Shown in pieces: positions 10,999 through 46,142 of a stretch of DNA of 64,000 bases. Numbering within the stretch: position 1 is the stretch's first letter; each line of letters starts with the position of its first letter. The stretch is from the NCBI GenBank assembly GCA_025980465.1, contig JAICXJ010000001.1:129705-193704 (forward strand). Reading direction: 5' to 3'. The stretch is from Frankiales bacterium. GTDB lineage: Bacteria; Actinomycetota; Actinomycetes; JAFAQI01. Both the position numbers and the translations under genes were made by a program. Under the pieces are notes generated by a model. It saw nothing but the letters and a program-made list of their open reading frames with translations. It made no database searches and was not told the DNA's origin.

Positions 10999-11840
10999 GT
11001 CCGCCTCCCCGGCGATCCGATGCGCACTGTGTGCAGGTCGTCTCCGAGCTCGATCCGGCCGTCGAAGTGGGCGGTCGCCCGAGCCCGCCACTCCGGCTCG
11101 TCGGCGGAGGTCAGGGCGGGCACGTAGTGGGTCAGTACGAGAGTCGAGGCGCCGGCACGGGATGCCGTCTGCGCCGCTTCCTCGACCGAGGAGTGGTAGT
11201 CGACGACGTCTCGAAGCCGCTGGATCGGCGCTTCGACGAGCAGGTCCTTTCTCAGCACGGTGTGCACGATCGCGTCCGCTCCGGCGCACAGCGCGTCCAG
11301 GCCGGAGCAAGGAACGGTGTCACCGGCGACAACGACGGCGTGCTCGCCCGCGTCGATGCGGAAGCCAACCGATGGCCTGACCGGCCGGTGATCGGTCGCC
11401 GCTGCGGTGACGGTGGCGTCGGCGGTCGTGAAGCACACGCCCTCGATGAACTCGCGCACCTCCACGGGTGGTTCCCAGCTGAGGTCGGCGTGATGGTCGA
11501 GCCGGTAACAGACGTCCTGCCGCAGCATCGCGACGATCCCATCCACTACCTCGCGCACACCAGGAGGTCCGATGATGACGAGGGGGCTGGGCGCGAAGCT
11601 GGTGACCCACCGGCTGGTGATCACGTCGTTGAGGTCGGTGATGTGGTCGCTGTGCAGATGGGTGATGAGGACAGCGTCGATCATTCCCGCTGTGACGCCG
11701 ACGGCTGCCGCCCGCATCAGGACACCTCGTCCGGTGTCGACCAGCAGCCGGGTTCCACCGACCTGGACCAAAGTCGCCGGTCCGGCGCGGTGGGGATCGG
11801 GCAGCGGAGACCCGGTGCCCAGCAGGACGATCTCGATCAC
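10995..11840 (-). CDS. MBL-fold hydrolase, RNase Z/AtsA-like
   Basis: A 281-residue metallo-beta-lactamase-fold protein with no signal peptide. The metal-binding HLHSDHITDLND motif follows an N-terminal LLGTGSPLPDPHRAG segment as in RNase Z-type enzymes. Further ligands are likely Asp in VVAGDTVP and the C-terminal His in LVLTHYVPAL. The GTG at 11840 has AAGGAG upstream. The same RNase Z-like branch includes arylsulfatases of the AtsA type; because it sits in a sulfatase operon a sulfatase or lactonase role is more likely than tRNA processing (inference). It lies 9 bp after the exported protein gene. Confidence 0.85.
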   Translation of the reverse strand: MIEIVLLGTGSPLPDPHRAGPATLVQVGGTRLLVDTGRGVLMRAAAVGVTAGMIDAVLITHLHSDHITDLNDVITSRWVTSFAPSPLVIIGPPGVREVVDGIVAMLRQDVCYRLDHHADLSWEPPVEVREFIEGVCFTTADATVTAAATDHRPVRPSVGFRIDAGEHAVVVAGDTVPCSGLDALCAGADAIVHTVLRKDLLVEAPIQRLRDVVDYHSSVEEAAQTASRAGASTLVLTHYVPALTSADEPEWRARATAHFDGRIELGDDLHTVRIGSPGRRT

Positions 11841-11849
11841 GGGACTCCT

Positions 11850-12857
11850 TCAGATCGCCGGTGGGGGACCGTGGCGAGGAGCGCGGAACCGTCCCACTCC
11901 CGCAACCGTTGCGCGCGGGCGACGTTCGGTGCCGCTGACCCACGCGGTGATGACGATGAGGGCGACCAGGCCGCCGATCGCGGCGGTGCGGGTGCGGCTG
12001 TCATCGATCGGTGTCACCGCGTTCGTCAGTGCCTGCGGGGAGGTCGTGACCTGGCTCGCGACCTGCGGCGCGGCGGCAGGTGCAGGAGGAACGCTGGGAG
12101 TCGTTACCGGCAGGATCGGTCCCCCGGGCAGCGGTGGGGAGGAGATGGCGACGTGACTCGTCGCAGGTGACGGCGACGGTGGCGGATTGCTCCGCGACGC
12201 CGGCTGGCTGAAGTCGAGCAGGCTCAACGCCGCTTTGGTCGGCGGCCGGAAGACCAACCGTTCGAAGCCGAGGCTGCCGGGCAGGATGACGAGCGAGAGG
12301 GTGTGACCGGTGAGCAGTCGCCCGATCCCAGGAAACACGATCGAGGTGCGGTCGAGTGAGAGTTGACCGATCGCTGAGCTGTTCGTGCAGTCATAGCCAG
12401 GCGCCGCCGAGAACGGCTGTTCGAGGCCGGGCCGGAAGCGGCGGGTTGTGGCGCACGCGATCGGTGTTGCTCCGCTCGGCAGTTTCGCATCGAGCTTCGC
12501 CGTCGTCAGGCCGGTCAGGCCAAGCGACAGGCTTGCCGGAGTGGCACCGCTCGGGATCCGGAACGACAGTGCCGTGAGCGCCGTGATCTGGTGAAACGGT
12601 GGCAGCGGTGGCAGCGGAATCGGCAGTTGCGAGGCGTCGAGGGTGAGGCCCTGAACCAGCAGGTCTTTGCGGCCGACTCCGGGCGTTGGCGCGGCCGGCG
12701 TCGACGCCGTCGGGCGGGCTTCGTCGTACCACGCCACCACTGCTGGGCCGATGTGCTTGGGAATCCGCGAGGCGCGCGCCGGCTCAGCAAGCGCCGGGGT
12801 AGCGGCGAGGAGGGCGAGGCCGAGCACCGCCCCGGCGACTGCGGCTCGGCGGATCAT
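11850..12857 (-). CDS. Exported, C-terminally anchored protein of unknown function
   Basis: A 335-residue protein. An N-terminal signal peptide (MIRRAAVAGAVLGLALLAAT then PALA) is followed by an extracytoplasmic domain with two Cys (CATT, YDC). A Pro/Ser/Thr/Ala-rich linker covers about 225-290, a single TM helix (IGGLVALIVITAWVS) lies near 296-312, and a basic tail ends it. No known domain is recognised. The ATG overlaps the transporter stop (ATGA). A second transporter set at 39-46 kb also includes an exported protein with the same signal/linker/C-terminal TM plan, so these may be accessory receptors or scaffolds for the fused ABC transporters (inference). Confidence 0.7.
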   Translation of the reverse strand: MIRRAAVAGAVLGLALLAATPALAEPARASRIPKHIGPAVVAWYDEARPTASTPAAPTPGVGRKDLLVQGLTLDASQLPIPLPPLPPFHQITALTALSFRIPSGATPASLSLGLTGLTTAKLDAKLPSGATPIACATTRRFRPGLEQPFSAAPGYDCTNSSAIGQLSLDRTSIVFPGIGRLLTGHTLSLVILPGSLGFERLVFRPPTKAALSLLDFSQPASRSNPPPSPSPATSHVAISSPPLPGGPILPVTTPSVPPAPAAAPQVASQVTTSPQALTNAVTPIDDSRTRTAAIGGLVALIVITAWVSGTERRPRATVAGVGRFRAPRHGPPPAI

Positions 12858-15800
12858 CTCGCACCCACTCGAAGAGCAGTTGAGTGGTTGCGGCCCGATC
12901 GGTTCCGTGCTGCATCGTCCGTGCCGAGGTAGCTGGCGATCACCTGTGGATCGCTGAGCACATCCTGCGGTGAGCCTGACACCACGACCCGGCCCTGCTC
13001 GAGGGCAAGTAGCCGATCGCTGACCGCGCAGATCAGTGGCATGTCGTGCTCGATGACCAGCAACGCGCAGTCGGCTTCGTCGCGGATTCGATGCAGCAGC
13101 GGGCCGAGCGCTTCCGCCTCTCGTTGTGCGATGCCGCTGCTCGGCTCGTCGAGCAGCAGCACTTTCGGGTCGTACGCCAGAGCCATGGCTAGGTCGGCGA
13201 TCCGGCGGGTGCCGGTCGACAGCTCGCGCGCCAACTTGTCGCGGTAGGCGCCGAGCGAGAGCAACTCGATCAGGTCGGTGACGGTCCAGGCGATGTGCCG
13301 CTCGGCTTCCGCCACGTCGGGAAGGGCGAGTGCGGCGGCGAGATGGTCGTGGACGTCGAGGTGGCGTTCGAGCGCGACCGCGATGTTCTCGGCGACCGTG
13401 AGGCTGCCGAAGATCCGAGCGTCCTGGAACGACCGTCCGAGGCCGAGCCGTCCGCGAGCATCCGGACCGAACGCCGTGACGTCGAGACCGAGGAAGCTGA
13501 CCCGCCCCTGCGAGGGCCGGAGGAAGCCGCTGACCAGGTCGAACACCGTGGTCTTGCCGGCACCGTTCGGCCCGATCAGGCCGAGGATCTCCCGCCCGTG
13601 CAGTGTGAAGGAGACGTCATGCACCGCGCGCACACCACCGAAGGACACCGCGATGTCGTTGACCCGCAGCACCTCACCGGCGAGCTCTGGCGAAGCCGAC
13701 CGAGCGGCGGGCACCGCGGCCCGAACCGGCTCGGTGAGGAAGACCGAGCGGACGATGTCGTCGCGCTCGAGCAACTCCACTGTCGAGCCCTCGAAGCGCA
13801 CCTCGCCCTTCTCCATGAAGTAGGCGCGGTCAGCGATGGTCAAGGCGACGTTCAGGGACTGCTCGACCAGGATCACGGTCGTTCCCTCGGCATTGAGCTG
13901 CCGGACGACCTCGAGTAGCCGCTCGACGACTGTGGGGGCAAGGCCGAGCGAGAGCTCGTCGATGATCAGCAGGGTCGGGCGGGTGATGAACGCCATACTC
14001 ACCGCGAGTTGTTGCGCCTCGCCGCCGGAGAGATTTCCCGCAAGGGTGTCCCACTTCGTCGCGAGGTGGGGGAAGGACGCCAGCGCCTGGGCCTGGGCGG
14101 CATCGGCATCGGCCGCGTGCCGGCCGGAGCGGGTCCAACGAGCCGCGCGGAAATGATCCGCGACCGTCACGGTCGGAAAGATCCCCTTGCCGCCCGGGAC
14201 CTGCGCGATGCCGCTGCTGCACCGCTGGACGGCGGCGGTGCGCGCGATATCCGTGCCGCGATAGTGGATCGTGCCGCTCCAGGCTGGGGTGAGGCCACTG
14301 ATCGCCCGAAGCAAGGTCGACTTACCGGCCCCGTTGGTGCCGAGCAGCGCCAAGACCTCGCCCTGTCGCACGTGCAGGTCGACGTTGAACAGCACCTGCA
14401 CCCCGTCGTACCCGACGTCGAGGCCGCGGCAGACCAGTAGTGCGTTCTCCGGTGGGTCGTCGAGGTGTGACCGCTCGATGCCGATGGTGGCGACTCCGCC
14501 CCGCACATCACTGTCGAGCCGGTCGGCGGTCAGGCTCGGCAGTTCCATCCCGCGTCGATGAGCCACCCAGCGCAGGAAGCGATCACGGATCGCGACGCCG
14601 GTCGCGGCGATGCCGCCGGGGAAGAAGGCCAAGACGATCAGTACGCCGCTGGCGAGTCCGAGCTCGTCGATGACGGCGAGCAGGCTGTGCAGCCCGATGT
14701 GGTTGAGGAAGCTGAAGATGGTCGGCCCGAAGTAGCGCAGCGACTCGTATGCGATGGCGCCGAGCACCGCGCCGTACGGGCTCGCGATCCCGCCCACGAT
14801 CGCGAAGACGAAGACGTCGATGCTCATCTGCAGGGGGAACGTCGTCGAGTCGATGGCGCCGACCTGGTAGCCGTACAGCGCGCCGGCGACGGCAGCCATT
14901 GCACCGGAAAGGGCGAAGGCCGCGATTCTTGTTCGCGCCGAGTTGACGCCGAGTGCCTGGGCGTTGCGCAGGTTGTCGCGCTGCGCGACGAACACCCGCC
15001 CGGATCGGCTGGCGCGCAGCCGCCGCGCCGATCCGACGAACAGCAGCAGGATTGCCAGACATAGGTAATAGAACGCATGGTCGCCGGTCGCGTCGAACCG
15101 GCCGAACAAGATCGGACGCTCGATCGTCTGGCCGTCCTTCGGCAGCAGCCAGCCGAAGTAGCGGGGATCGAGGACCCATAGTTGGACGAGCGCAGCGAAG
15201 GCGAGCGTGACGACGGCGAGGAACAGCCCGGGCAGCCGAAGCGCCGGGATGCCGATCAGCGCCGCGACGAGGGCGCCGACGGCAGCTGCCACTACCAACG
15301 TCACGAAGAAGTCGGCGTGGGCGCGGGTAGCGAGCCCGCCGGCGACCGCCGCGCCGACACCTGCAATGCCGAACTGACCCAGCGAGACCTGGCCGGCCCA
15401 GCCGGTGAGGAGGGTGAGGGAGAGCGCGACCATCGCCGCCAGCGCGATGAGGGTCAGGAACCCGAGTCGCGACGATCCCACGATGTACGGCGCCAGAACG
15501 AGGAAGGCGAGGCCGGCTGACCGTGCGCCTCGACCGGCCCAGACCACCTCGGGCAGGCGTCGTAGCTGCGTCGGGATCGGCCTGGTCTCGGCGAAGGTCT
15601 GGAAGCTCGAGATGCCGGTGTCAAACGCGCGCGTGACCCGCCGTCTCCCGAGCAGGGCCACCAAGATGATTGGAAGCACCAGCGCAGCCGGAAGGTTCGG
15701 GTTGTTCGAGGAGTAGTACGCGGCGCGGTCGAGCATGCCCAGCCCGATACCGGCCACGAGTGCGGTCGGTAGGTCGTCAAACCGCGCGATGACCGCGGCC

Positions 15801-16558
15801 GCCAGCGGGAAGAGCAGCAGCGCCGGGTCGACATCGGATCCCAGTGACTGCCCGACGACCGCGATCTTCAGGAACGCCGAGGCAGCGGACAGCACGCCCG
15901 CCAGCACCCACACCAGGACTGCCATCCGGCGTACCGGGATACCGAGCAGCAGCGCCCGGTCGGCGTTGTCGGCGGCCGCACGCACCGCAAGTCCGGTCCG
16001 GCTGACCCGGAAGAAGACCGAGAGCCCGATCGACACGACAGCCGCGACCACGATGATGGCCAGGTAGTCGCCGGTGAGCACGACCTGGCCGATCGAGAGG
16101 TGCAGTTTCGAAAACGGCGTCGGCAGCTGGGTCGCTCCGAGCACGGTGCTTCCGAACAGCGAGGGCAGCACCACCTCGCCGACGACGAGGATCTGCCCGA
16201 CACCGATTGTTGCCACCGTGAGCACCAGCCGCGACTTGGTGGCGAACCGGCGCAGCAGGGTCCGCTGCGCGACCGCACCGAGCAGTCCGCCGCTGGCGAG
16301 CGCGACCACGACACCGACGAGGTACGGCAGGTGCGCCTGCGTGATGACAAGCAGACCGAGGACTGCGCCGCTACCGCCGAGCGCGGCCTGCGCGAAGTTG
16401 ATGATCCGCTGCGCTCGGTAGACCAGGATCAGTCCGAACGCGGGTAGCGAGTACAGCAGACCGAAGATCGCACCCTCGACGAGGTTGCCGAACGGCACCC
16501 GGAAGATCAGCTCGGCAGCGAGCGCAATGGCTCCAAGCGCGAGGATGCGCTTGATCAT
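12854..16558 (-). CDS. Four-domain fused ABC transporter (LivH-LivM-LivF-LivG in one chain)
   Basis: A single uninterrupted 1234-residue frame holds an entire branched-chain-amino-acid-type (HAAT) importer core. A LivH-like permease spans about 1-330 (RIINFAQAALG, GLAVRAAADNADRALLLGIP). A LivM-like permease spans about 345-665 (GWAGQVSLGQFGIAGVGAAV, SGAMAAVAGALYGY). A LivF-like ATPase spans about 704-935 (Walker A GTNGAGKST, signature LSGGEAQQ, Walker B LLIIDELSLGL). A LivG-like ATPase spans about 963-1205 (Walker A GPNGAGKTT, signature-like LSTGTRRI, Walker B LLLDEPSSG). ATG 16558 overlaps the binding-protein TGA (ATGA); the open frame upstream of it is out-of-register sequence of that gene. 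Normally these are four separate proteins. Transport is inferred; the substrate is unlikely to be an amino acid given the sulfatase operon. Confidence 0.93.
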   Translation of the reverse strand: MIKRILALGAIALAAELIFRVPFGNLVEGAIFGLLYSLPAFGLILVYRAQRIINFAQAALGGSGAVLGLLVITQAHLPYLVGVVVALASGGLLGAVAQRTLLRRFATKSRLVLTVATIGVGQILVVGEVVLPSLFGSTVLGATQLPTPFSKLHLSIGQVVLTGDYLAIIVVAAVVSIGLSVFFRVSRTGLAVRAAADNADRALLLGIPVRRMAVLVWVLAGVLSAASAFLKIAVVGQSLGSDVDPALLLFPLAAAVIARFDDLPTALVAGIGLGMLDRAAYYSSNNPNLPAALVLPIILVALLGRRRVTRAFDTGISSFQTFAETRPIPTQLRRLPEVVWAGRGARSAGLAFLVLAPYIVGSSRLGFLTLIALAAMVALSLTLLTGWAGQVSLGQFGIAGVGAAVAGGLATRAHADFFVTLVVAAAVGALVAALIGIPALRLPGLFLAVVTLAFAALVQLWVLDPRYFGWLLPKDGQTIERPILFGRFDATGDHAFYYLCLAILLLFVGSARRLRASRSGRVFVAQRDNLRNAQALGVNSARTRIAAFALSGAMAAVAGALYGYQVGAIDSTTFPLQMSIDVFVFAIVGGIASPYGAVLGAIAYESLRYFGPTIFSFLNHIGLHSLLAVIDELGLASGVLIVLAFFPGGIAATGVAIRDRFLRWVAHRRGMELPSLTADRLDSDVRGGVATIGIERSHLDDPPENALLVCRGLDVGYDGVQVLFNVDLHVRQGEVLALLGTNGAGKSTLLRAISGLTPAWSGTIHYRGTDIARTAAVQRCSSGIAQVPGGKGIFPTVTVADHFRAARWTRSGRHAADADAAQAQALASFPHLATKWDTLAGNLSGGEAQQLAVSMAFITRPTLLIIDELSLGLAPTVVERLLEVVRQLNAEGTTVILVEQSLNVALTIADRAYFMEKGEVRFEGSTVELLERDDIVRSVFLTEPVRAAVPAARSASPELAGEVLRVNDIAVSFGGVRAVHDVSFTLHGREILGLIGPNGAGKTTVFDLVSGFLRPSQGRVSFLGLDVTAFGPDARGRLGLGRSFQDARIFGSLTVAENIAVALERHLDVHDHLAAALALPDVAEAERHIAWTVTDLIELLSLGAYRDKLARELSTGTRRIADLAMALAYDPKVLLLDEPSSGIAQREAEALGPLLHRIRDEADCALLVIEHDMPLICAVSDRLLALEQGRVVVSGSPQDVLSDPQVIASYLGTDDAARNRSGRNHSTALRVGAR

Positions 16559-18228
16559 CGGCCGGGGATGCGGAAGGTCGTGGCGGGGAACTGGCCGAGG
16601 GTGTAGCGGCGGCCGGCGTTCAAGGCGACGTAGCTGCCCGCCTTGCCGTTGATGGGGCTGCGCTTGGTCGGGTCCCAGAAGACGATCCGCGCGTCCGAAA
16701 CCGCAGTGAAGTCGCCCGCGCCGAACTTGATCAGCGAGTGGTAGCGCGTCCCACCCCACGCCGGCAGGCTCAGCACCGCTCGTTCGAAGGTGACCGGGTT
16801 GAGATTGGCGCCCGCTTGCTGGAGGCCGGCAGCCAGCACCGAGAAGAAGCCTTGGATGTTGTCGGCACTCGTGAACGGCCCGAAGGCGCCCTTGGTGGAC
16901 CGATAGACGGCGCCGGCGTCGTAGTGGCTCGGGGTTGACATGTCGGGAAGGTCACCGAGGCCGAAGGCATTTTTCCACTGCGACTTGCTGTAGAGCTGGG
17001 CGAGCGCGTCGAAGTCGGAGTAGCCACCACCGGTGATGACGTTCTCCGGGTAGTAGTTCTGCTGCGTCATCTGCTGGGTGAGGAACACCGGCAGCACCGG
17101 ATCGGTGAAGTAGATGATCGTCGTGATCCCGCTCTGCTTCGCCTGCGAGGCGAGCGTCGTCGACTGCACGACGGCCTGGCTGGTGTCAGGTGAGAACGTC
17201 TTGATCACGGCGCCCCCGCCGTGATCGCAGCCGTTGATGATCGAGGCGAGATGCTGCGCCGCCTCGACGTGTTCCGGGGTGTCGTCGACCAGCACTTCCG
17301 CGGTGCGCCGCTTCGACCGCAGCGAGGCCTCGCCGGCGTAGATCGCGTCGCGGTGCGCGAGCTGCTTGCAGTACCACTCGCCGGTGATCTCAGCTTGGGT
17401 GTCGCCGTCCATGTCGTAGTCGAAGTGGTACGGCGCCTGCCCGGTGTCGTAGCTCAGCGGCATCCCCGCGGCGCCGAAGTTCGTCACACCGAGATGTGAG
17501 AGCTCGGCGTTGAACCCTGGTGCGGTGAGATTGCGCGGGAAGACGACAGCGAACGGGTGGTACTTGGAGACGACGGTCTGCGCATCCTGGCGGAAGCACG
17601 CGTCACTCGGCGGTGAGGCCTCGCACGATTGGCTGATGTAGTCGTCGATGTGGATGCTGCGCCCGTACAGCTCGTAGCGCGCGTTGATGAAGCTGGTCTC
17701 TCGTGCCAGGAAGTCATTGATCTGGGACGCGCTCGGCGCCAGACCTGCCGGGCCGAGAATCGCCTTGAGGGCCAGGCTCTGCTCCGGCTGGTAGTAGACG
17801 ATTTCGATCTGACTGTTGGTGATCCCACGGGCTGTTGCGCCGCCGTTGTTGCCGGTGAAGGTTGGCTGGCACGCAGGCGCGGCGGCGAACCCAGGCACGG
17901 CGAACTGCCGGCCGCCCGTGCAGTGCGCCGTGCTCCCGCTGGCGGTCTGGCCGCCGCCCGCCCGGCTCGTCCCGCCCGTTGACGAACCGCCCGATCGGCC
18001 CGAACCGTTGAGCGACGATGCGCCGGTCGCGGGTCCGTGCTGGCCCGGCGCCGTACCGGTCGAGGAGGTAGCCGTCGGGATCGAGCCCGACGTGGAGCCA
18101 CCGGCACTCGTCGGGCCGGTGGCGTAGTTCGGGACCGTGGTGGAGGCGCCCTTAGACGGCGCGACGATCACGAGAAGCAGCAGCGCCGCGGCAATGATCA
18201 GCGCAGGCGCGTAGCGACGGATCGGCAC
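16555..18228 (-). CDS. Membrane-anchored HAAT-type solute-binding protein
   Basis: A 557-residue protein, first gene of the seven-gene run. An N-terminal TM helix (ALIIAAALLLLVIVA) lacks a lipobox Cys, so it is probably an uncleaved anchor. A Gly/Ser/Thr-rich linker follows to about residue 110. From about 130 a periplasmic-binding fold type I (LivJ-like) domain runs to the end, with GNNGGATARGITNSQIEIVY at its start and QQNYYPENVITGGGYSDFD later. GTG 18228 has GAGG upstream. Known LivJ-like proteins are soluble or lipoproteins; tethering by a TM plus flexible linker is unusual. It would feed the fused permease encoded next. Confidence 0.88.
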   Translation of the reverse strand: MPIRRYAPALIIAAALLLLVIVAPSKGASTTVPNYATGPTSAGGSTSGSIPTATSSTGTAPGQHGPATGASSLNGSGRSGGSSTGGTSRAGGGQTASGSTAHCTGGRQFAVPGFAAAPACQPTFTGNNGGATARGITNSQIEIVYYQPEQSLALKAILGPAGLAPSASQINDFLARETSFINARYELYGRSIHIDDYISQSCEASPPSDACFRQDAQTVVSKYHPFAVVFPRNLTAPGFNAELSHLGVTNFGAAGMPLSYDTGQAPYHFDYDMDGDTQAEITGEWYCKQLAHRDAIYAGEASLRSKRRTAEVLVDDTPEHVEAAQHLASIINGCDHGGGAVIKTFSPDTSQAVVQSTTLASQAKQSGITTIIYFTDPVLPVFLTQQMTQQNYYPENVITGGGYSDFDALAQLYSKSQWKNAFGLGDLPDMSTPSHYDAGAVYRSTKGAFGPFTSADNIQGFFSVLAAGLQQAGANLNPVTFERAVLSLPAWGGTRYHSLIKFGAGDFTAVSDARIVFWDPTKRSPINGKAGSYVALNAGRRYTLGQFPATTFRIPGR

Positions 18229-34758: not shown

Positions 34759-35457
34759 ATGAGCCGACATCACTCGCCCCGCCGCGAGGGGACTCGGACG
34801 GCGCCCCCGCCGCGCCGGTCGCAGGCAGAGCGGGCCGAGCAGATGCGCGCCCGGCTGCTCGACGCCACGATCGAGTGCCTGTCCGAGTCCGGCTATGGCC
34901 GGATGTCCACCAACGACATCGTGCGCAAGGCCCGAGTATCGCGGGGCGCCCTCGCCCACCACTTCCCGACCAAGGCCGATCTCGTGAAGGCGGCAGCGCA
35001 GCGACTGCTCGACCACCGCGCCGAACAGTTCCACGAGCGGTTCGCCGCCATTGCGCCTGAGCGACGTACCCCGGCCGAGGCGCTCGCCGTGCTCTGGTCG
35101 TTCTACGACGATCCAAGCGGTCTGGCGTTGATCGAGCTCACCGTGGCGGCCCGCAGCCACCGGGAGCTTCGCTCGATCTTGCAACCGATGTCGAAGCAGA
35201 TCGAGAAGATCACCGCCGAGGTTGTCGTCGCGTACTTCCCTGACCTGGCCGGGCTGCCGTTCATCGAGGAGGCGCTGCGCGCCGTGCACGCGATGTACGT
35301 CGGGCTCGCCCTGTCCGCGCAGGCCGGAAGCGAGGCGGTTCAGCACTCCGCCGAGGTCCGCGCGTTCCTCAAGGTGCTGGTGTCGATGACCGGCTCCCTG
35401 GAGCCGATCCTGTCCGGTCCAACTCAGTCCCTCGAACTCGTTCGGAGCCGTCCATGA
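34759..35457 (+). CDS. TetR-family regulator heading the PF10118/FMO operon
   Basis: A 232-residue regulator with an Arg/Pro-rich N-terminus and the HTH LLDATIECLSESGYGRMSTN followed by DIVRKARVSRGALAHHFPTK. ATG 34759 fits; a frame from 34732 adds residues from the promoter. No clear Shine-Dalgarno is seen, and TACGTT 6 nt before the ATG could be a -10, so a leaderless start is possible. Its TGA overlaps the next start (ATGA at 35454-35457), so it is co-translated with the metal-dependent hydrolase. Confidence 0.88.
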   Translation: MSRHHSPRREGTRTAPPPRRSQAERAEQMRARLLDATIECLSESGYGRMSTNDIVRKARVSRGALAHHFPTKADLVKAAAQRLLDHRAEQFHERFAAIAPERRTPAEALAVLWSFYDDPSGLALIELTVAARSHRELRSILQPMSKQIEKITAEVVVAYFPDLAGLPFIEEALRAVHAMYVGLALSAQAGSEAVQHSAEVRAFLKVLVSMTGSLEPILSGPTQSLELVRSRP

Positions 35458-36305
35458 CCACCCCCACGATTCGCACCCGACGGGTGAAGTTCGACTACTA
35501 CTCGCCCGGCCATGTCGACCGCCACTTCGCGCAGGGTGACCTGGTGCTGAGTCATATCGTCGCGATGCTCTCGGCGGTGTTCCCCGAGGGTGAGGATTTC
35601 TTCGTTCGTTCGGTCCGGCACTACGCCGACGACATCACCGACCCTGAGCTGAAGAAGGCGGTCGCCGGTTTCACCGGTCAGGAGACGATGCACGGCAACG
35701 AGCATCGGGCTCTCAACAAGCGATTGCAGGAACTCGGCTATCCCACCCGTCGAGTCGACCGGATGACCAAGGCTGATCTGGCCCGGGCTCATCGGCGACT
35801 CGACCCGAAGATCCAGCTCGCGATCACTGCTGCCCTCGAGCACTACACCGCAACCTTGGCCGAGGTCCTGCTCACGAGCGAGAAGGCGCGTGAGCTTCTC
35901 GGCGATGGCGACGTGCGCTCGATCCTGTTGTGGCATGCGCTCGAGGAGTCCGAGCACAAGGCGGTCGCGTTCGATGTCTACCGCGCGGTGGGCGGCACCG
36001 AGAAGATGCGAATCCGCACGATGCGAATGGTGACCTTCTCGTTCCTCGTCGGCATGATCTTCGAGAGCATCGTGTCGATGCTCGGCGACCGCTCGACGTA
36101 CCACCCGGTGCGGCTGGTGAAGAGCCTGGCGGCGCTGCGCCACTCACCGTGGCTAGCGAAGGAGGTCCGCAAGCGGATCGTCGACTACAACCGGGTCGGC
36201 TTCCACCCGAACGACAACGACAACACCGCGCTGCTCGAGTACTGGTCGAAGGAGTTGTTCGGCCCCGGTGGACAGCTCGAGGAGAACCTCAAGGGCGCGG
36301 CATGA
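35454..36305 (+). CDS. Predicted metal-dependent hydrolase (PF10118-like, ferritin-like)
   Basis: A 283-residue helical protein with carboxylate/His clusters GQETMHGNEHRAL, ALEHYTATLAE and WHALEESEHKAVAFDVY, as in the YbaK-unrelated PF10118 metal-dependent hydrolase family. ATGA overlaps on both sides tie it to the TetR and the flavin monooxygenase. The reaction is unknown; the metal site suggests an oxidase or hydrolase acting on a hydrophobic compound. Confidence 0.78.
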   Translation: MTTPTIRTRRVKFDYYSPGHVDRHFAQGDLVLSHIVAMLSAVFPEGEDFFVRSVRHYADDITDPELKKAVAGFTGQETMHGNEHRALNKRLQELGYPTRRVDRMTKADLARAHRRLDPKIQLAITAALEHYTATLAEVLLTSEKARELLGDGDVRSILLWHALEESEHKAVAFDVYRAVGGTEKMRIRTMRMVTFSFLVGMIFESIVSMLGDRSTYHPVRLVKSLAALRHSPWLAKEVRKRIVDYNRVGFHPNDNDNTALLEYWSKELFGPGGQLEENLKGAA

Positions 36306-37789
36306 CGCCTGACCATGAGGTCCTCATCGTCGGTGCCGGCTTCGGTGGGCTGGGTACGGCGATCGAGTTCAACCGGCTCGGCATCGACGACATCCTCATC
36401 CTCGAGCGCGAAAACGACCTCGGCGGCACCTGGCACGTCAACCGCTATCCCGGCCTCGCGGTCGACATCGCCTCGGTGACCTACTCGTACTCCTTCGAGC
36501 CCAATCCGTACTGGTCGCGGTTGTATGCGCCCGGGGCGGAGTTGAAGGGCTACGCCGACCACGTCGCCGACAAGTACAACCTGCGTCGGTACATGCGCTT
36601 CAACGCTGCCGTCGAGAGTGCCCGATGGGACGACGAGGAGCAGCTGTGGAGCGTCTCTCTCGCCGGCGGTGAGACCGTGTCGGCGCGTTATCTCGTCACC
36701 GCCACCGGCTTCCTCTCCCAGCCCTACCGCCCCGAGATCGAGGGCATCAATGACTTCACCGGCACGGTCATCCACACCGCCAAGTGGGACGACACCGTCG
36801 ATCTGGCCGGGAAGCGCATCGCGATCATCGGCACCGGCGCCACCGCCGTTCAACTGATTCCCGAGCTCGCGAAGGTCGCCGGCCACCTCACGGTGTTTCA
36901 GCGGACGCCGATCTGGGTGGTACCGAAGGTGGACGGGCCGATCCCGAAGCCGGTGCAGCAGTTGTTCGCCCGGCTGCCGATTGCGCAGCGGATCGCTCGC
37001 GCCGTCAACATCGGCATGTACGAGGCGCTCATCGGCGGCGTCATCCGGTTCCGCCAGGCGAAACGGCTGAACCTGCACCGTCGACCGACGGCGATGGGCA
37101 TCAAGCACATGCGGCGGCAGATCGCCGACCCGGAACTACGTCGCAAGCTCACGCCGGACTACGACTTCGGCTGCAAGCGACCGACGTTTTCCAATGACTA
37201 CTACCCGGCGTTCACCCGTCCCAATGTGCGGCTCGAGACCACGCCGATCGGTCACTTCACACCAACCGGGATCGTGACGACGGACGGCAACGAGACCGAG
37301 ATCGACGTACTCGTCCTTGCGACCGGGTTCAACATCTGGGACAGCAACTTCCCCGCGATCGAGATCATCGGCCGCGAGGGTCGCAACCTCGGCAAGTGGT
37401 GGCGTGACAACCGGTTCTGCGCGTACGAGGGCGTCTCGGTCCCGATGTTTCCCAACTACCTGTCGATCGCGAGCCCGTACTCCTACATCGGGTTGTCCTA
37501 CTTCACGACGATCGAGGCGCACATGCGCCACATCGAGCGGCTGTTCGGCGAGATGCGACGTCGCGGCGCCCGGACGTTCGAGGTGACCGACGATGCGAAC
37601 ACCCGGTTCCTCGACCGGATGACGGCGAAGCTCGCCGACTCGGTCTTCTACAACGGCAACTGCGCCACCGCCAACAGCTACTACTTCAATCAGCACGGCG
37701 AGGCCGCGATCCTGCGACCCACCTCAACCATCAGCGCCCGCCGCGAAGCCGGCCGCTTCCCGCTCAACGACTACACCTACGCCGCCTAG
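36302..37789 (+). CDS. Flavin-containing Baeyer-Villiger-type monooxygenase
   Basis: A 495-residue FAD/NADPH monooxygenase. GAGFGGLG near 11 binds FAD, DLGGTWHVNRYPGLAVDI is typical, and FTGTVIHTAKWD near 150 is the BVMO fingerprint with Asp in place of the usual Pro. GTGATAVQ near 180 binds NADP and DVLVLATGFN closes. ATG 36302 overlaps the previous TGA (ATGA). It likely oxygenates a ketone or related lipophilic compound, with the adjacent PF10118 protein acting in the same pathway. Confidence 0.9.
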   Translation: MTPDHEVLIVGAGFGGLGTAIEFNRLGIDDILILERENDLGGTWHVNRYPGLAVDIASVTYSYSFEPNPYWSRLYAPGAELKGYADHVADKYNLRRYMRFNAAVESARWDDEEQLWSVSLAGGETVSARYLVTATGFLSQPYRPEIEGINDFTGTVIHTAKWDDTVDLAGKRIAIIGTGATAVQLIPELAKVAGHLTVFQRTPIWVVPKVDGPIPKPVQQLFARLPIAQRIARAVNIGMYEALIGGVIRFRQAKRLNLHRRPTAMGIKHMRRQIADPELRRKLTPDYDFGCKRPTFSNDYYPAFTRPNVRLETTPIGHFTPTGIVTTDGNETEIDVLVLATGFNIWDSNFPAIEIIGREGRNLGKWWRDNRFCAYEGVSVPMFPNYLSIASPYSYIGLSYFTTIEAHMRHIERLFGEMRRRGARTFEVTDDANTRFLDRMTAKLADSVFYNGNCATANSYYFNQHGEAAILRPTSTISARREAGRFPLNDYTYAA

Positions 37790-39015: not shown

Positions 39016-42000
39016 TCAGGACTTCGCGGCGGCGGTCTTCTTGCGCGGTGCCCGCTTCGCCGGCGCCTTCTTCGCGGTGGTGCCGGATCGGTCGATCGCG
39101 GCACCCTCGACGCCGAGGTAGGACTCGATCACTCGCGGATTCTCGAGCACGGACGTAGGCGCGCCCTCAGCGATCACTTCGCCCAGCTCCAGTGCCACCA
39201 GCCGGTCGCACAGCGAGGTGAGCAGTGGCATGTCGTGATCGATGACCAGCATCGTGCAGCCGGCGTCCTCACGGACCTGGCGGAGCAGCGGGCCGAGTGC
39301 CTCGCTCTCCCGTTGCGCGACGCCGGCGGTCGGCTCGTCGAGGAGGACAACCGCCGGGTCTTGGGCGAGCACGCAGGCGAGCTCGACGATGCGACGGGTG
39401 CCAGTGGACAGTGCGCCGATCTGGGACTCGCCGTACTTGTGCAGACCGAGCTTGTCGAGGAGTTCGTCGACCCGGACCGCGACCTCGAGCTCCGAGAGGG
39501 TCGAGGCCGGCAGTCGCAGTGCCGCAGCCACGAGGTCGCGTGAGGTGAGATGACGCTCGAGCGCCACCGCAACGGTTTCCTGCACCGTGAGCGCTGGATA
39601 CAGCCGCGCCTCCTGGAACGAGCGACCGAGGCCGAGGAACGCCCGGTCGGCGGGGGCGAGGTCGGTGACATCGGCGCCGCCGAGCAGCACGCGGCCGTGC
39701 TCGGGCCGCAGGAAGCCGCAGATCACGTCGAACAGGGTGGTCTTGCCGGCGCCGTTGTGTCCGATCAGGCCGAGGATCTCGCCCTTGTGCAACGACAGCT
39801 CGATGTCGTTGAGGACCCTGATGCCACCGAACGCCTTTCCGACGTAGACGCACTCAAGAACCGTCGGCGCTGCGACGATGTCGGCGATCGTGCGCGCCGT
39901 GCCGCCGTTGCTCTTGGCGGCGGCCGCGGCCCGCTTGCCTCCGCCGCCCACAGATCCACCATTGAGCTCGGGGGAGCTGACGTCGGCGGCATGGAGCTCG
40001 GCCGCCACCCCGGCCGCACCGTGGATGAAGACCGAGCGCAGAACGTCGTTTCGCTCGAGCAGGTCGGCGGTGTCGCCGCTGAACCGCACCGAACCGCGCT
40101 CCAGGAACACCGCCCGCTTCGCGACTTCGAGCGCGACGTTCACCGACTGCTCGACGATGACGATGGTGATGCCCTCGTCGACCAGTTCCTGTACGACGTC
40201 GAGCAGGCGGGACACCACGGTCGGGGCGAGGCCGAGCGACAGCTCGTCGATGAGCATCAGCTTGGGCGTCGTTCGCAACGCCATCGCCAGCGACAGCATC
40301 TGCTGCTGGCCGCCCGACATCGTGCCGGCGAGCTGGTTGTCGCGCTCACCGAGGGTCGGGAACAGGTCGATGACGCGGCTGCGGCTGCGGGTGAGGCTGG
40401 CGGTGTCCTTGCGGCTGAGCCAGGCCGCGACCCGGAGGTTCTCCCCGACCGTGAGGGACGGGAAGATCGACTTCGCCGGCATGAGTGTGAGACCGGCCTT
40501 GACCCGTTCCTGCGGGCTGAGCTTGGAGATGTCGCGACCGTGGTATCTGACCTCGCCAGGTGCCGCCGACATCAGGCCGGCAACGACCTTCAGCATCGTC
40601 GACTTGCCGGCGCCGTTCGTGCCGAGCAGAGCGACGACCTCGCCGTCGTTGACGTCGAGGTCCACGCCGAAGAGCACCTGCATCGCGCCGTAGCTGGTTT
40701 CGACATTGCGGCAGTGCAGCAGGGTGCCATCCGGGATCGCCGTGACCTGCTCGGGGACGATCGGCTCGGTGATATCGACATTGGATCCGGCCGCCGTCGC
40801 CACCAGGTCGATGCCGCGCCGATTCGCGACGAGGACCAGCAGCCGGTCTCGCACCCAGTTGACCGCGCCGATCAGACCACTCGGTAGCACCAGCAGGATG
40901 ATCAGCAGGCCGGTGCCGGTGATAAGCAGCTGGTACTGCGGATAGGTGTGGACGGCCAGCTCGACGGCACCCACGCCGAGCAGTGCACCGAAGATCGAGT
41001 CGACACCGCCGATGATCAGCATCGAGAAGACGAGCAGGCTCTCCGACGGCGGGTAGGTGCCGAAGCCAACCGCTTGCAGGATCGTGGCGTGAAGCCCGCC
41101 CGCGATCCCCGCGATCGCGCCGGAGGTCACGAAGCTGAGGAGCGTGACGCGGGTGGTCGGCACTGCCATCGCGGCGGCGGCCCGTGGATTGTCCCGGGTG
41201 GCGACCATGACCCGGCCGGGCCTGGCCCGCCGGATGCCACGAACGAACACGATGACGAACAGCAGGAAACCGAGACACAGGTAGTACAGCGGTCGCTCGC
41301 TTTGCAGATCGAACCGCTTCCACAGGACCGGGCGGGTGATGGTGCCGGGGATCAGCGAGTTGAAGTTGACCGGGTTGAGGAAGAACGCGTCCATCGCCAC
41401 CGCGAGCGCCATGGTCGTCACGGCGAGGAACAGCCCGCGCATCCGCAGCGCCGGCACACCGACGAGTACGGCGAGGAAGGCCCCGGCTACCCCGGAAGCG
41501 ATCAGGCAGATGAACAGGTCGAGATTGAAATGGTTCAACAGGTCGCCGGTGAGGACAGCACCCAGCCCGACGAACGCGTACTGACCGAGGCTGACCTGGC
41601 CACCCCAGCCCGAAAGCACGACAAGCGAGACGGCGACGATTCCGTAGATCACCGTCGTACTGAAGATCTGGATCGTTGCCGGACTGGTGGTCAGCGGAAT
41701 CAGGATCGCCGCAGCGAGCAGGGCCAACGGGCCGCCGATCCGCATCGCGAGGACCTCGGGCAGGTTGCGCAGCACCGCCGGGATCTCGCGCGAGCCGCCG
41801 CCGGCGAGCGACAGGGTGGACTCCTCGGCGCCCTCACGTCGCCCGATCGGTCCGCGGTTGAGCACCAGCGCGACCAGGATGATGATCAGGAACGCGACGG
41901 TCGTCACCGACTGCTTGTTGAAGTTCCAGCCGATCAGCGAGTTCAGGATGCCGAGGCCGATACCGGCGACGACGGCGATCGGCAGTGACTCCATGCCGGC

Positions 42001-42810
42001 GATGACCGCGGCGGCGAGGGCGGGCAGCAGCAGCGTCGGGCCGGCGGCGGCATCGATCGTCAAGCCTTGGTTCGGCGCCGGCAGGATGACGGCGAGCGAG
42101 GCCAGCAGGCCGGCGACGGCCCACACGACGGTGGCCAGCCGCTGCACCGGGATGCCGAGCAGTAGCGCCCGGTCACGGTTGTCGGCTGCCGCCCGCACCG
42201 CGATGCCGGCGTCGGTGCGCAGCAGGAACCAGGCCAGGATCGCGATCGCGATCGGCACTGCGCCGACGGCCACCAGATCATTGCCGGTGAACAGCACCGG
42301 CCCGATGTTGAGACTGTGTCCGGACAACCCGGTGGTGAAGCCGCCGATCAGCGTCGTACCGCCGAGCCATTTCGGCAGCAGCAGCTGGATGCCGCCGAGC
42401 ACCTGCGCCAAGCCGATCGTCGCGACCGTGAGGATCAGCCGTGACGCCCGCGCGAACCGGCGGATGACGAGGACCTCGACGAGGCCGCCGACGATCGCGC
42501 CGGAGACCAGGCCCACCGCGATCGCAGCCGCCCAGTTCCATCCGTGCTGGAGGTAGAGCAGGACGCCGATCGTGCCGCCGACGCCGCCCATCGAGCCGTA
42601 GGCGAAGTTGACGATCCGGTCCGAGCGGTAGGTCAGCACCAGGCCGAGTGCGAGCAGGCCGGTCACGCTGCCGTAGACCGCGCCTTGCAGGATCACTCCG
42701 AACGGCGCCTTGCCACTGTCGGCGAAGTGGGTCAGGAGCAGCGCAACGACGACACCGATGCCGATCGACAGCGGGATGTTCTGCCGCGCTGTCGCGAGGA
42801 GCCGATTCAC
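39016..42810 (-). CDS. Second four-domain fused ABC transporter (LivH-LivM-LivF-LivG)
   Basis: A 1264-residue polypeptide with the same order as the 12.8-16.6 kb gene. The LivH-like region (DRIVNFAYGSMGG, AAADNRDRALLLGIP) spans about 1-340 and the LivM-like region (GWGGQVSLGQYAFVGLGAVL) about 360-690. ABC ATPase 1 has Walker A GTNGAGKST near 731 and MSGGQQQML; ATPase 2 has Walker A GHNGAGKTT near 1016, LSTGTRRI and VVLLDEPTAG. It ends in a Lys/Ala-rich tail (KKAPAKRAPRKKTAAAKS) absent from the first copy. GTG 42810 overlaps the binding-protein TGA (GTGA). A paralogue of the first set, probably with a different substrate. Confidence 0.93.
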   Translation of the reverse strand: MNRLLATARQNIPLSIGIGVVVALLLTHFADSGKAPFGVILQGAVYGSVTGLLALGLVLTYRSDRIVNFAYGSMGGVGGTIGVLLYLQHGWNWAAAIAVGLVSGAIVGGLVEVLVIRRFARASRLILTVATIGLAQVLGGIQLLLPKWLGGTTLIGGFTTGLSGHSLNIGPVLFTGNDLVAVGAVPIAIAILAWFLLRTDAGIAVRAAADNRDRALLLGIPVQRLATVVWAVAGLLASLAVILPAPNQGLTIDAAAGPTLLLPALAAAVIAGMESLPIAVVAGIGLGILNSLIGWNFNKQSVTTVAFLIIILVALVLNRGPIGRREGAEESTLSLAGGGSREIPAVLRNLPEVLAMRIGGPLALLAAAILIPLTTSPATIQIFSTTVIYGIVAVSLVVLSGWGGQVSLGQYAFVGLGAVLTGDLLNHFNLDLFICLIASGVAGAFLAVLVGVPALRMRGLFLAVTTMALAVAMDAFFLNPVNFNSLIPGTITRPVLWKRFDLQSERPLYYLCLGFLLFVIVFVRGIRRARPGRVMVATRDNPRAAAAMAVPTTRVTLLSFVTSGAIAGIAGGLHATILQAVGFGTYPPSESLLVFSMLIIGGVDSIFGALLGVGAVELAVHTYPQYQLLITGTGLLIILLVLPSGLIGAVNWVRDRLLVLVANRRGIDLVATAAGSNVDITEPIVPEQVTAIPDGTLLHCRNVETSYGAMQVLFGVDLDVNDGEVVALLGTNGAGKSTMLKVVAGLMSAAPGEVRYHGRDISKLSPQERVKAGLTLMPAKSIFPSLTVGENLRVAAWLSRKDTASLTRSRSRVIDLFPTLGERDNQLAGTMSGGQQQMLSLAMALRTTPKLMLIDELSLGLAPTVVSRLLDVVQELVDEGITIVIVEQSVNVALEVAKRAVFLERGSVRFSGDTADLLERNDVLRSVFIHGAAGVAAELHAADVSSPELNGGSVGGGGKRAAAAAKSNGGTARTIADIVAAPTVLECVYVGKAFGGIRVLNDIELSLHKGEILGLIGHNGAGKTTLFDVICGFLRPEHGRVLLGGADVTDLAPADRAFLGLGRSFQEARLYPALTVQETVAVALERHLTSRDLVAAALRLPASTLSELEVAVRVDELLDKLGLHKYGESQIGALSTGTRRIVELACVLAQDPAVVLLDEPTAGVAQRESEALGPLLRQVREDAGCTMLVIDHDMPLLTSLCDRLVALELGEVIAEGAPTSVLENPRVIESYLGVEGAAIDRSGTTAKKAPAKRAPRKKTAAAKS

Positions 42811-44507
42811 CGCGCGTTCGGGTCAGGCTTGTGCGGGAAGTTGCCCTTCGGGAAGTGGCCGGTCTTGTAGCGCCCGCTGGAGAACACGTAGGCGCCCTTC
42901 TTGCCGTTGTACGTCGACACCCGGTTCGGATCCCAGTAGATCTCGGCGCCATCCAGGGTCGGCGTGAAGTGACCGGTCGGGAAGCCCCAGGTGCCGAACT
43001 CGCCGGTGCCGCCCGGGTAGGACCGCATTCCGCGTTCGAAGTTCGCCGCGGTCAGATCGGGGCCGGCGAGCTGGATGCCGAGCGCCAGCATGTACATCTG
43101 GGCGTAGATGATGTTGACCGCCTGGGCCGGCTCGTCGCTTCGGACGCTCTTGTACGCCGCGTATCCGAGCGTGGCCTGGTAGGGCAGCGTCTTGCCCTGG
43201 TAGGTGAGACCGAGGGCGTGGGCCCACTCGCTCTGGTTGAACAGCTGGCCGACGATGTCCTGGTCGGTCAGCGCGACGCCGACGACGTTCCACTCCGGGT
43301 AGTAGTTCTGCTCCTGCGCCCGCTGGGTCAGGTACACCGGGAAGACCGGGTCGCAGCCGCACACCACCGTCGTGATGTTGTTGGCCTTCAGCTTCGAGAT
43401 CACACTGGCGGCCTGGCTCGACAGGGTCGCGAGGTTGAGCTGGTACTGGATGTTCATCGCGATCGAATGGCCCGATGCCTTCCAGATGTTGATCGCATTC
43501 TGGACGCACTGCTGGTACCACGGGTTGTCGGGCGCGAGGATCGCGAACTTGCGGGGCTGGTTCGCGAACGCCGGCGCGAACGAGGCCTTCTTACCCGCCA
43601 GCTGCGCCACGCCGAGTTGGGCGTTCGACTCGCTGACCAGCGAACAGTCGGTGGCGAGGCTCCAGGCGTACGGCGCTCGCTGCCCGAACCACTGTGCCGA
43701 CAGGTAGGGCTCGCCGAAGTTGAGCACCTTGTCGCGGGACAGCGCGTCGCCGTACGGCTCGGTCGCAGCACTCATGTCGGCGAACGCCTTGATGCTGGTC
43801 GCCACGTGCAGCGCGTCGTCGTCAGCCTGCTGCTGGCCACCGCCGAGCAGCTCGTTGGTCTGCGAGCCCTGGCCGTTGTAGAAGACGAACTTGATCTTGC
43901 GGCCGTAGAACTGGAAGTTCTTGTTGAAGTAGTCGGAGAGGCCCTGGATCGTGCGCCGGACGTCCGCCGGGGTGTCGGCGAACTGCGCTCCGCCGATGGA
44001 GGCGAGGGTCTGCTGGAAACCGGGGTCGGAGGTTTGGCGGTAGGCGACCGTGATCGTGCTGCCAGTCACGCCTTGGGTGGTCACCCCGCCGTTGTTGCCA
44101 TGGAAGGCAATACACGGCGGCGAGTACGGGTCGCCCTTCACCTGAGGGCCGCTGCAGCCCTTGGCCTTGGCAACCGGGACGCTCCCACCGCCCGACGGTG
44201 ACGTCGAGGTCCCGCCGGACCCGGTCGAGCCAGGCACACTCGCGGACCCGCCCGACCCCGGGCTGGTGATCGCGCCGCCCGGCGTGGTGCCGGTAGAGCT
44301 ACCCGTGCTGCCGAGTCCGCCGCCAGCGGCGGCACTCTGGGTGCGAATCGTGACCTTCTGGGGGGCGTCGGTCGGCACGAACGCCGCCATCAGCGCGAAC
44401 GCGACTACCAGCGCCGCGAGCGGGCCGTAGCCGCGGAGCAGCGGCTGGCTGATTCCGCCGCGGCGGGCAGCCGGCGGGGTGTTGACCGGCTCGGTGGCGC
44501 CGCTCAC
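42807..44507 (-). CDS. Membrane-anchored HAAT-type solute-binding protein, second set
   Basis: A 566-residue protein. A TM helix (GPLAALVVAFALMAAFV) lies near residues 28-45 without a lipobox. A Gly/Ser/Thr linker runs to about 110 and a type I binding domain follows, with FHGNNGGVTTQGVTGSTITV, VVCGCDPVFPVYLTQ and EQNYYPEWNVVGVALTDQD. GTG 44507 has GAGAGG upstream. It is paired with the fused permease by a GTGA overlap and has the same architecture as the 16.5-18.2 kb protein. Confidence 0.88.
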   Translation of the reverse strand: MSGATEPVNTPPAARRGGISQPLLRGYGPLAALVVAFALMAAFVPTDAPQKVTIRTQSAAAGGGLGSTGSSTGTTPGGAITSPGSGGSASVPGSTGSGGTSTSPSGGGSVPVAKAKGCSGPQVKGDPYSPPCIAFHGNNGGVTTQGVTGSTITVAYRQTSDPGFQQTLASIGGAQFADTPADVRRTIQGLSDYFNKNFQFYGRKIKFVFYNGQGSQTNELLGGGQQQADDDALHVATSIKAFADMSAATEPYGDALSRDKVLNFGEPYLSAQWFGQRAPYAWSLATDCSLVSESNAQLGVAQLAGKKASFAPAFANQPRKFAILAPDNPWYQQCVQNAINIWKASGHSIAMNIQYQLNLATLSSQAASVISKLKANNITTVVCGCDPVFPVYLTQRAQEQNYYPEWNVVGVALTDQDIVGQLFNQSEWAHALGLTYQGKTLPYQATLGYAAYKSVRSDEPAQAVNIIYAQMYMLALGIQLAGPDLTAANFERGMRSYPGGTGEFGTWGFPTGHFTPTLDGAEIYWDPNRVSTYNGKKGAYVFSSGRYKTGHFPKGNFPHKPDPNAR

Positions 44508-44520
44508 TACTGCACCTCTC

Positions 44521-45966
44521 TCACAGCTGGACCACTGGAAGCCGGCGACGGCGGCGCATCACGAAGAAGTCCGCGGCACCGATCGAGCCCACCGCGGCGA
44601 GCGCGATGAGGCCGACCGTGAGGCCCTGCCCGTCGGTACAGCCTGGGGAGTGCGCCGGGCTGGTGCTCGAGCAGTCGCGGCTGACGGTGACGTCGCCGGC
44701 GATCTGCGGCGTGCCGCCGCCAGGCGTGGTGGTTGCCGAACCGGTGCCGGGAAGGTTCGTGCTCGGGACCGAGCCACCGCCCGACGGCGAGGTGGTCGGC
44801 GGACTCGTTGAACTGCCCTGGTTACCGAGCGGGTGGCCGCCGCCGAGGGTCTGGTTGCCGAACGGGTTCGCGTAGGTCTTGCCGTCCGTGTTGGCGCTGG
44901 CCCCGCCGAAGTCGACGTCTGCCCCCCCGGTGCCGTCGATTGCCGCGGCGGCGAGGTCAGCGACCGTGAAGAGCTTGCCGAAGCTGCAGCTGATGCCGTC
45001 GAGCGCGGTTCGCAACGGGTTGGTGACCGGGTCGAGCGCGCCCAGGATCGGGTTGACGATCTGACCGCCGAGCTTGGAGTTGTTGATACCGATCTCGAGC
45101 GGGTTCTCGGTCAGCGTTCCGCCCTGGAACAGGGCGGTGGGCAGCGTGATGTGGATACCGGTCGGAGCCAGCAGCTGGTTGAGCCGTTTGAACGTGGATT
45201 CGATACTGCCCTGGTCAACCGGCAGCGGCTTGCCGGCGAGGCTCAGCCCGCCGAGTGAGAACGAGGAGCTCTGGCCGTGGTGCGTGCCGCCGCGCTGAGT
45301 GGCCGTCCACTTCATCCCGGTGAGCACGATCGCGCCGTTCAGCAGGCTGATCGACCCGACTTCCGAGCTAGCGGTGGCGACTCGGGCCTTGCCCGGGATC
45401 AGCGTCGAGTGACCTTCGCTGTGCAGCCCGCTGGCGCTGAGCAGTCCGGGCAGGACGAGCGCGCTGCCGTCGAACGTCGCGATCGCTGCCGGGATCGTCT
45501 TGGCGATGACCGCCTCGTGACCTGCGACGGCGATCAAGCCCTTTGCGCCCTGACCTGCTGTGTTCTTCTCGGCGTGGGCGTTGCCGTGGGTGGACTCGGC
45601 GACCAGCGGCTGTGGCAGCTGGTTGGCCTTGAACAGCGGGGGAGTCGAGTCACACTGGGTGGTGAGCGTGGTGCCGACCACGCCGAGGTTGAGTGTCTGG
45701 CTGGACGCCTGCGCAAGGGTGTGGCGGTACTGCGCGATCGACGTACCGATGGCGAGAGTCGCCGACAGCCCGCCGGTCTTCGGCGCGATCTGAAGCGCCT
45801 GCGAGATCGCGGTGGCGTCCCCCGCGACGAACGGCTTCGCCTTGCCGGCGAAGGCCAGCTGGGTCGGTACGACGACGGCGATTGAACAGGCTGTGACGAG
45901 TGTGAGGACGCGACGCGTCCGGGGCATGGCCAGCCGCTTTCGGCCGGGCCCGCACTCCTTACTCAT
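44521..45966 (-). CDS. Exported, C-terminally anchored protein, second set
   Basis: A 481-residue protein beginning MSKECGPGRKRLAMPRTRRV with a signal peptide through QLAFAGKA. Extracytoplasmic Cys are few. A Pro/Ser/Gly/Thr-rich stretch (residues about 370-440) precedes a C-terminal TM helix (GLTVGLIALAAVGSIGAADF) and an Arg-rich tail. No known domain is recognised. ATG 45966 has GGGAG 5 nt upstream; ATG 45927 is an alternative. It stands first in the second transporter run, 13 bp before the binding protein, and matches the layout of the protein at 11.8-12.9 kb without obvious sequence identity. Confidence 0.72.
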   Translation of the reverse strand: MSKECGPGRKRLAMPRTRRVLTLVTACSIAVVVPTQLAFAGKAKPFVAGDATAISQALQIAPKTGGLSATLAIGTSIAQYRHTLAQASSQTLNLGVVGTTLTTQCDSTPPLFKANQLPQPLVAESTHGNAHAEKNTAGQGAKGLIAVAGHEAVIAKTIPAAIATFDGSALVLPGLLSASGLHSEGHSTLIPGKARVATASSEVGSISLLNGAIVLTGMKWTATQRGGTHHGQSSSFSLGGLSLAGKPLPVDQGSIESTFKRLNQLLAPTGIHITLPTALFQGGTLTENPLEIGINNSKLGGQIVNPILGALDPVTNPLRTALDGISCSFGKLFTVADLAAAAIDGTGGADVDFGGASANTDGKTYANPFGNQTLGGGHPLGNQGSSTSPPTTSPSGGGSVPSTNLPGTGSATTTPGGGTPQIAGDVTVSRDCSSTSPAHSPGCTDGQGLTVGLIALAAVGSIGAADFFVMRRRRRLPVVQL

Positions 45967-46142
45967 CTGACTCCCGTCCGCGCCCGGGATGTGCCGTGCG
46001 TCACAGCGATCCGTCACCATAGGAGGGTCGATCCGCGTGCGGCAAGGGTGGTACGCACGATTCCCAAGAGGACGAATGTGGTTCGACCGGCCGATACTGG
46101 CCGGCAGGCCTTCCAGCGTGCGTTGTCGAAGGATGGTTCGGT

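Follow-up and report, generated by a model that had tools for sequence, protein, structure and literature searches.

Organisation of the locus

We analysed a 64,000-nucleotide stretch of a Frankiales genome (hereafter the window; contig JAICXJ010000001.1 of assembly GCA_025980465.1, positions 129,705 to 193,704) and concentrated on three successive minus-strand genes that encode an exported protein (E2), a substrate-binding protein (B2) and a four-domain fused ABC transporter of the HAAT type (T2). E2 and B2 are separated by 13 nt, and B2 and T2 overlap by 4 nt (GTGA, the GTG start of T2 lying over the B2 stop). The original prediction for positions 39016-46002, namely an exported C-anchored protein, an anchored binding protein and a four-domain fusion, agrees with what we found. 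The features are the following (L, G and C numbers below are our handles for loci, genomes and contigs).

44521..45927, minus strand: E2, exported partner, 468 residues, with a signal-like N-terminal segment, an ectodomain, a Pro/Gly/Ser linker, a C-terminal transmembrane segment and RRRRR
44560..44616, minus strand: C-terminal transmembrane segment of E2, residues 438-456
42807..44507, minus strand: B2, binding protein, 566 residues, with an N-terminal transmembrane anchor, a Gly/Ser-rich linker and a Peripla_BP_6 domain (Pfam PF13458, 1e-11)
44385..44441, minus strand: N-terminal membrane anchor of B2, at LLRGYGPL, predicted transmembrane residues 23-41
42981..43976, minus strand: periplasmic-binding-protein domain of B2, residues 178-509
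39016..42810, minus strand: T2, four-domain fused HAAT-type (LivHMFG-like) ABC transporter, 1264 residues (Pfam)
41821..42711, minus strand: LivH-like permease domain of T2, residues 34-330
40786..41730, minus strand: LivM-like permease domain of T2, residues 361-675
40036..40725, minus strand: LivF-like ATPase domain of T2, residues 696-925 (Walker A GTNGAGKS, signature MSGGQ, LMLIDE)
39091..39861, minus strand: LivG-like ATPase domain of T2, residues 984-1240 (Walker A GHNGAGKT, signature LSTGTRR, VVLLDE, IDHD)
39019..39090, minus strand: Lys/Ala-rich C-terminal tail of T2, 24 residues

T2 is a single open frame in which the domains follow the order LivH-LivM-LivF-LivG (Pfam BPD_transp_2 twice, ABC_tran twice, BCA_ABC_TP_C), and the Walker A, signature and Walker B motifs are intact in both ATPases. 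The Lys/Ala tail had been taken as a trait of this copy; its orthologues L116 and L117 lack it and end directly after the last ATPase domain, so it does not characterise the family. HAAT importers (LivFGHMK) form family TC 3.A.1.4, and the locus shares with them two BPD_transp_2 permease stretches (1.6e-51), LivF- and LivG-type ATPases with BCA_ABC_TP_C, and a Leu-Ile-Val-type binding protein, since the Peripla_BP_6 match of B2 lies past the cut-off. Separate core polypeptides are usual in the family, if not strictly defining; here, in contrast, the four core domains lie in one chain with F before G, the binding protein sits on an N-terminal helix without a lipobox, and there is an additional exported, C-anchored partner. 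The lipobox pattern was found in none of the 28 B-type proteins scanned, B2 included. B2 matches no NCBIfam model, and a profile of B-type proteins matches no solved structure at E 0.01. In E2 the hydrophobic segments are residues 7-25 and 438-456, the second followed by RRRRR. A start at 45927 (MPRTRRVL, resembling a signal peptide) appears likelier than one near 46002.

Paralogous sets and their conservation

A first set of the same kind lies elsewhere in the window.

16555..18228, minus strand: B1, anchored binding protein of the first set, 557 residues, transmembrane residues 7-25 (30% identical to B2)
12854..16558, minus strand: T1, fused transporter of the first set, 1234 residues from MIKRILAL (Pfam; 43% identical to T2)
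11850..12857, minus strand: E1, exported C-anchored partner of the first set, 335 residues, overlapping T1 by 4 nt
11853..11900, minus strand: cytoplasmic C-terminal tail of E1, GVGRFRAPRHGPPPAI, whose motif is kept in 16/16 members of one transporter clade

We aligned the two fusions (43% identity over 1245 residues) and the two binding proteins (30% over 517 residues, E 2e-50), and counted the sets in the genome and in its relatives. B1 has no Pfam match of its own and is homologous to B2 by this comparison. The gene order is E-B-T at 39016-46002 and B-T-E at 11850-18228. The claim that the same three-part set recurs with a changed order thus holds for the transporters and the binding proteins. 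It does not extend to the exported partners: BLASTP revealed no homology between E1 and E2, and their profiles (15 and 16 relatives) aligned with an hhalign probability of 11% over 9 linker columns, hence only the layout of ectodomain, Pro-rich linker and C-terminal transmembrane segment is common to both. Nor are there just two sets, as had been thought, since a third complete one, in order E-B-T, occurs on contig C98 (L089). It encodes an E of 368 residues, cut near the contig start, a B of 563 residues (44% to B2) and a T of 1254 residues (52% to T2). Five further clusters of this genome are conventional, F and G being separate genes in each (L089, L090, L091, L092 and L093), and H and M form one gene in all of these except L092. 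Judged by identity, the T1 and T2 sets are old paralogues, because each is closer to sets of other genera (T1 to L118, 81%; T2 to L116, 77%) than to the other. The orthologous sets in G004 and G005 are 40-46% identical for E, 68-70% for B and 68-72% for T.

Linkage was counted in a class sample of 148 genomes and a phylum sample of 149; the counts hold for these samples, neighbouring genes were read by eye, and genes outside the window were called with our own codon-usage script, without annotation. In the class sample E2-type genes occur at 19 places in 10 genomes, and the 18 strong ones, in 9 genomes, all lie in sets together with B-type and transporter genes (at one of them, L162, HM is present with no FG gene beside it). 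E1-type genes were found at 26 places in 11 genomes, 22 of which adjoin HAAT-type genes and one of which is at a contig edge (G010:C193). As for B-type genes, 39 of 44 places (17 genomes) adjoin a transporter gene of the subfamily and one is at a contig edge (G010:C280), so the pairing with a binding protein recurs well beyond this locus. The phylum sample gave strong matches in 8 genomes, our own included. Fifteen of its loci were read, yielding 12 readable sets, and four of these have an E (L243 of the E2 type; L246, L247 and L249 of the E1 type). The remaining three (L254-L256) have frames broken in the gene calls and are unreadable; no E match was found in their open reading frames. These counts support the predicted view of the three-gene set as a conserved unit, in which the partner is, on sequence comparison, one of two unrelated kinds.

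Origin of the single-chain transporter

We inferred trees of 43, 39 and then 51 sets, using quick searches with SH-aLRT support only; L168 forms a long branch. The trees cover sets other than those that were partial or fetched later (L129, L130, L132, L133, L166, L208, L209, L211, L215-L218, L220 and L122), L162, which has no FG gene beside HM, and L254-L256 of the phylum sample. Among the rows included, L125b misses part of the H domain, and L161 and L243 have a partial FG.

The fused state requires three changes in all three trees. Fused proteins make up 4 rows in the T1 clade and 10 in the T2/T3/f14 clade; the third group is L151 with L168, which L242 later joined. Placing all 16 fused rows, a group defined by gene structure and not by the tree, in one clade was rejected for the four domains in the 39-set tree (p-AU 3e-62), and a single fused clade was also rejected for HM alone (7e-5) and for FG alone (3e-8). 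The 12 fused rows outside T1, a group picked after the first tree, were rejected as a clade as well (9e-4). HM is joined and FG is joined in every split ingroup relative in the tree; therefore two core genes are most likely the ancestral state, the single chain being the final step. The T1 and T2 fusions would then most simply be independent joinings of adjacent HM and FG genes. The same partners accompany HM and FG where these are split, so conservation concerns the set and not the fusion. The repetition of the module, originally offered as a sign that the fusion was selected, thus does not argue for the fusion itself. The domains of T1 and T2 are related as homologous paralogues, and their fusions are most simply taken as separate, three changes being required in the HM, FG and four-domain trees alike.

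The fusion could be a neutral by-product, in which overlapping HM and FG genes of one operon were joined by a small indel and drifted to fixation. We regard this as a plausible account, if short of the likelier one. It would fit the three changes on the tree, the short and unconserved linkers between M and F, and the possibility of a 4-nt overlap between HM and FG in split sets (L127, L128, L152). It sits less well with the persistence of the fused state through long branches in the T2/T3/f14 clade, with 10 rows in three families.

The partners follow the trees differently. E2 marks one clade in the 51-set tree (17/17, SH-aLRT 93) and extends beyond its own class (L243), while E1 (19 rows) needs three changes. 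The E1 tail motif requires a single change: it is present in 16/16 rows of one clade and in none of the three E1 rows outside it.

Exported partners and role of the set

By a hydropathy threshold, the C-terminal transmembrane segment is present in 16/16 E2-type and 13/15 E1-type proteins. The E1 tail motif, G[VIL]GRF-x3-R, occurs in 13 of the 15 proteins of the E1 alignment (not in L153 and L155) and in L208, L246, L247 and L249. It is absent from the E1-type proteins of L209, L211, L214, L215, L216 and L168; the scoring covered loci with a clear and complete gene, which leaves aside L210, L212 and L217. Pfam and NCBIfam contain no match for either kind of partner, and the PDB no convincing one. 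Pfam scans of all E members gave matches of single members to 2 and 4 families (best 0.049), and PDB profile searches reached E 0.17 and 0.16 at best; we took both as chance. Anchoring of E2 by sortase was considered and rejected, as LPxTG occurs in only 2/16 E2-type proteins, by reading some 40-50 residues before the transmembrane segment.

Surface companions are also found in conventional HAAT clusters. L215 and L216 have an E1-type protein ahead of separate genes for H, M, G and F and of a binding protein that resembles a lipoprotein. On C52 a C-anchored protein directly follows LivF, with relatives in G004, G005, G011 and, weakly, G009. The comparison of E2 with the exported protein of the conventional C52 and C98 clusters is only suggestive (hhalign 18%, 53 columns). 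Such companions, C-anchored exported proteins and/or small membrane proteins, lie at L090:10588-12632, L089:11657-13802, L091:6166-6777 and in L228-L231, and several of those in L089-L091 and L228-L231 end in a Cys-rich H-x2-DC ... C-x2-C motif. The surface companion is therefore recurrent in HAAT clusters of this bacterium's own family.

In our view the locus probably encodes a HAAT importer of a variant type, whose binding protein is tethered and to which a surface protein belongs as a dedicated accessory subunit. The sequence itself shows the domain content, the overlapping genes and the linkage kept among relatives, and it predicts the anchors. The direction of transport is taken to be import because a binding protein is present, and E2 may associate physically with B2 and T2. 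T2 would supply the two permease and the two ATPase domains as a single chain, and B2 would be the substrate-binding protein, held at the membrane by its N-terminal helix and a long flexible linker in place of a lipid anchor. E2 would serve as the dedicated accessory subunit: its secreted ectodomain, carried by a C-terminal helix, most likely captures substrate at the cell surface or presents it there, or else holds B2 near the transporter. The single chain would most likely have come about in the T1 and T2 lineages separately.

Several results weigh against this interpretation. The 19th E2-type place, in G130, is a weak relative outside any set, and four of the 44 B-type genes are orphans (G050:C26:130083, G028:C1:4326889, G067:C36, G036:C90). 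In the phylum sample, eight of the 12 sets that could be read have no E (L242, L244, L245, L248, L250, L251, L252 and L253), and L248, L250 and L251 additionally have no B-type match. L151, a fused set in the bacterium's own order, has a B and no E. Single-sequence AlphaFold models of E1 and E2 were unusable (mean pLDDT 38 and 35) and reveal no structural link for E. Finally, the substrate proposed below is drawn from neighbours in few genomes. As E is found in certain clades and not in the whole subfamily, it is not required for transport in general.

It is possible, if rather doubtful, that E2 (and E1) are co-expressed surface proteins with a job of their own, such as adhesion, wall contact or polymer binding, serving the same substrate without being importer subunits. 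This would explain the sets without E, the weak relative in G130 and the E1-type domains found apart from transporters at 3 of 26 places (G005:C31:86113, G010:C488, G004:C133). At one of these three places the domain is joined, in a 931-residue protein (L213:1621-4416), to what reads as an esterase-like half, so the E1-type ectodomain is used outside transport too. The presence of all 18 strong E2 places in sets speaks for a dedicated subunit instead, as do the 4-nt overlap of E1 and T1 and the cytoplasmic tail of E1, which tracks one transporter clade with a single change.

Building on the accessory-subunit interpretation, we tentatively propose a more speculative and, taken as a whole, unlikely extension. 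In one Actinomycetota subfamily the HAAT importer may have acquired an additional subunit throughout a clade, namely a secreted ectodomain with a C-terminal membrane helix that was recruited at least two times from unrelated families. This subunit would contact the binding protein outside the cell, and the E1 kind would dock on the ATPase half through its conserved cytoplasmic G[VIL]GRF-x3-R tail, signalling surface capture to the motor.

Relation to known transport systems

Other Actinomycetota have related MFS-LivF plus LivHMG and HM plus MFS-LivFG systems (L010-L024, L127 and others). These belong to the same subfamily, with a joined HM and a G domain that bears the LSTG[TS]RR signature; unlike T2, they carry an MFS domain (PF07690) before the ATPase or ATPases. 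No E and no B-type gene was found in L010-L024 and L040.

Fusions of this MFS type (PF07690, 105 bits in L127 and L012) before LivF-LivG or LivF alone lie at L127:7849-10779 and L012:6657-8876 and in L246, L247, L252 and L253. They join a secondary-transporter fold to ABC ATPases within HAAT operons.

One ancestral fusion that was later split in several lineages is improbable. By parsimony, three gains are indistinguishable from mixtures of gain and loss. Against this, the single fused clade is rejected in every comparison given above, and, the outgroup being split, one gain would have to be followed by several fissions, in some of which an MFS domain also came to stand before FG. We regard a urea-type (Urt) transporter as very unlikely indeed: the whole-protein score of T2 exceeds the NCBIfam UrtE cut-off (296.9 versus 285.8) but not that of UrtD (303.2 versus 304.1), the UrtD and UrtE scores each sum two ATPase domains, and B2 has no NCBIfam match.

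Several core domains per chain are also known from P-glycoprotein-type full-length exporters and from importers with fused parts such as FhuB and RbsA. P-glycoprotein-type exporters have no binding protein, whereas T2 has two transmembrane domains followed by two nucleotide-binding domains and a separate binding protein. In the importers OpuA and GlnPQ a binding domain fused to the permease stays permanently near the transporter. B2 would likewise be kept near its transporter, but by a helix of its own and a long linker.

Orphan anchored binding proteins lie at L223:3866-5614, L225:6060-7805 and L222:7032-8747, two of them a few kb from a complete set.

Neighbouring genes and putative substrates

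T2 shares with its orthologue in G005 an FMO-like monooxygenase, a Metal_hydrol gene and a TetR gene (window 34843-37789), and by reading the first two are also near the orthologue in G004, before that stretch ends. An EHN epoxide hydrolase adjoins T2 in the window and was not seen in the G004 and G005 stretches. T1-type sets are flanked by sulfatases on one or both sides (the window, L118, L120, L121). These neighbours suggest organic, possibly hydrophobic or sulfated, substrates. For T2, the flavin monooxygenase, the epoxide hydrolase and Metal_hydrol suggest an organic substrate that is probably not an amino acid.

In the window, sulfatase genes lie on both sides of the T1 set (7958-10543 and 18414-20567), one of them with a fused DJ-1/PfpI domain. 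The T2 orthologues of L116 and L117 are followed by a gene of the AIM24 family (9683-10432 and, by reading, 10954-11709, respectively), whereas T2 in the window is not.

Implications for the family

We found nothing in the open literature on four-domain HAAT proteins or on the E partners, most subscription papers being outside the search. The locus would add a four-domain, single-chain architecture to a major bacterial importer family. Pairs of split and fused sets, and of sets with and without the partner, stand in one tree and provide natural before/after comparisons, so that the effects of fusion and of an extra surface subunit would be directly testable.

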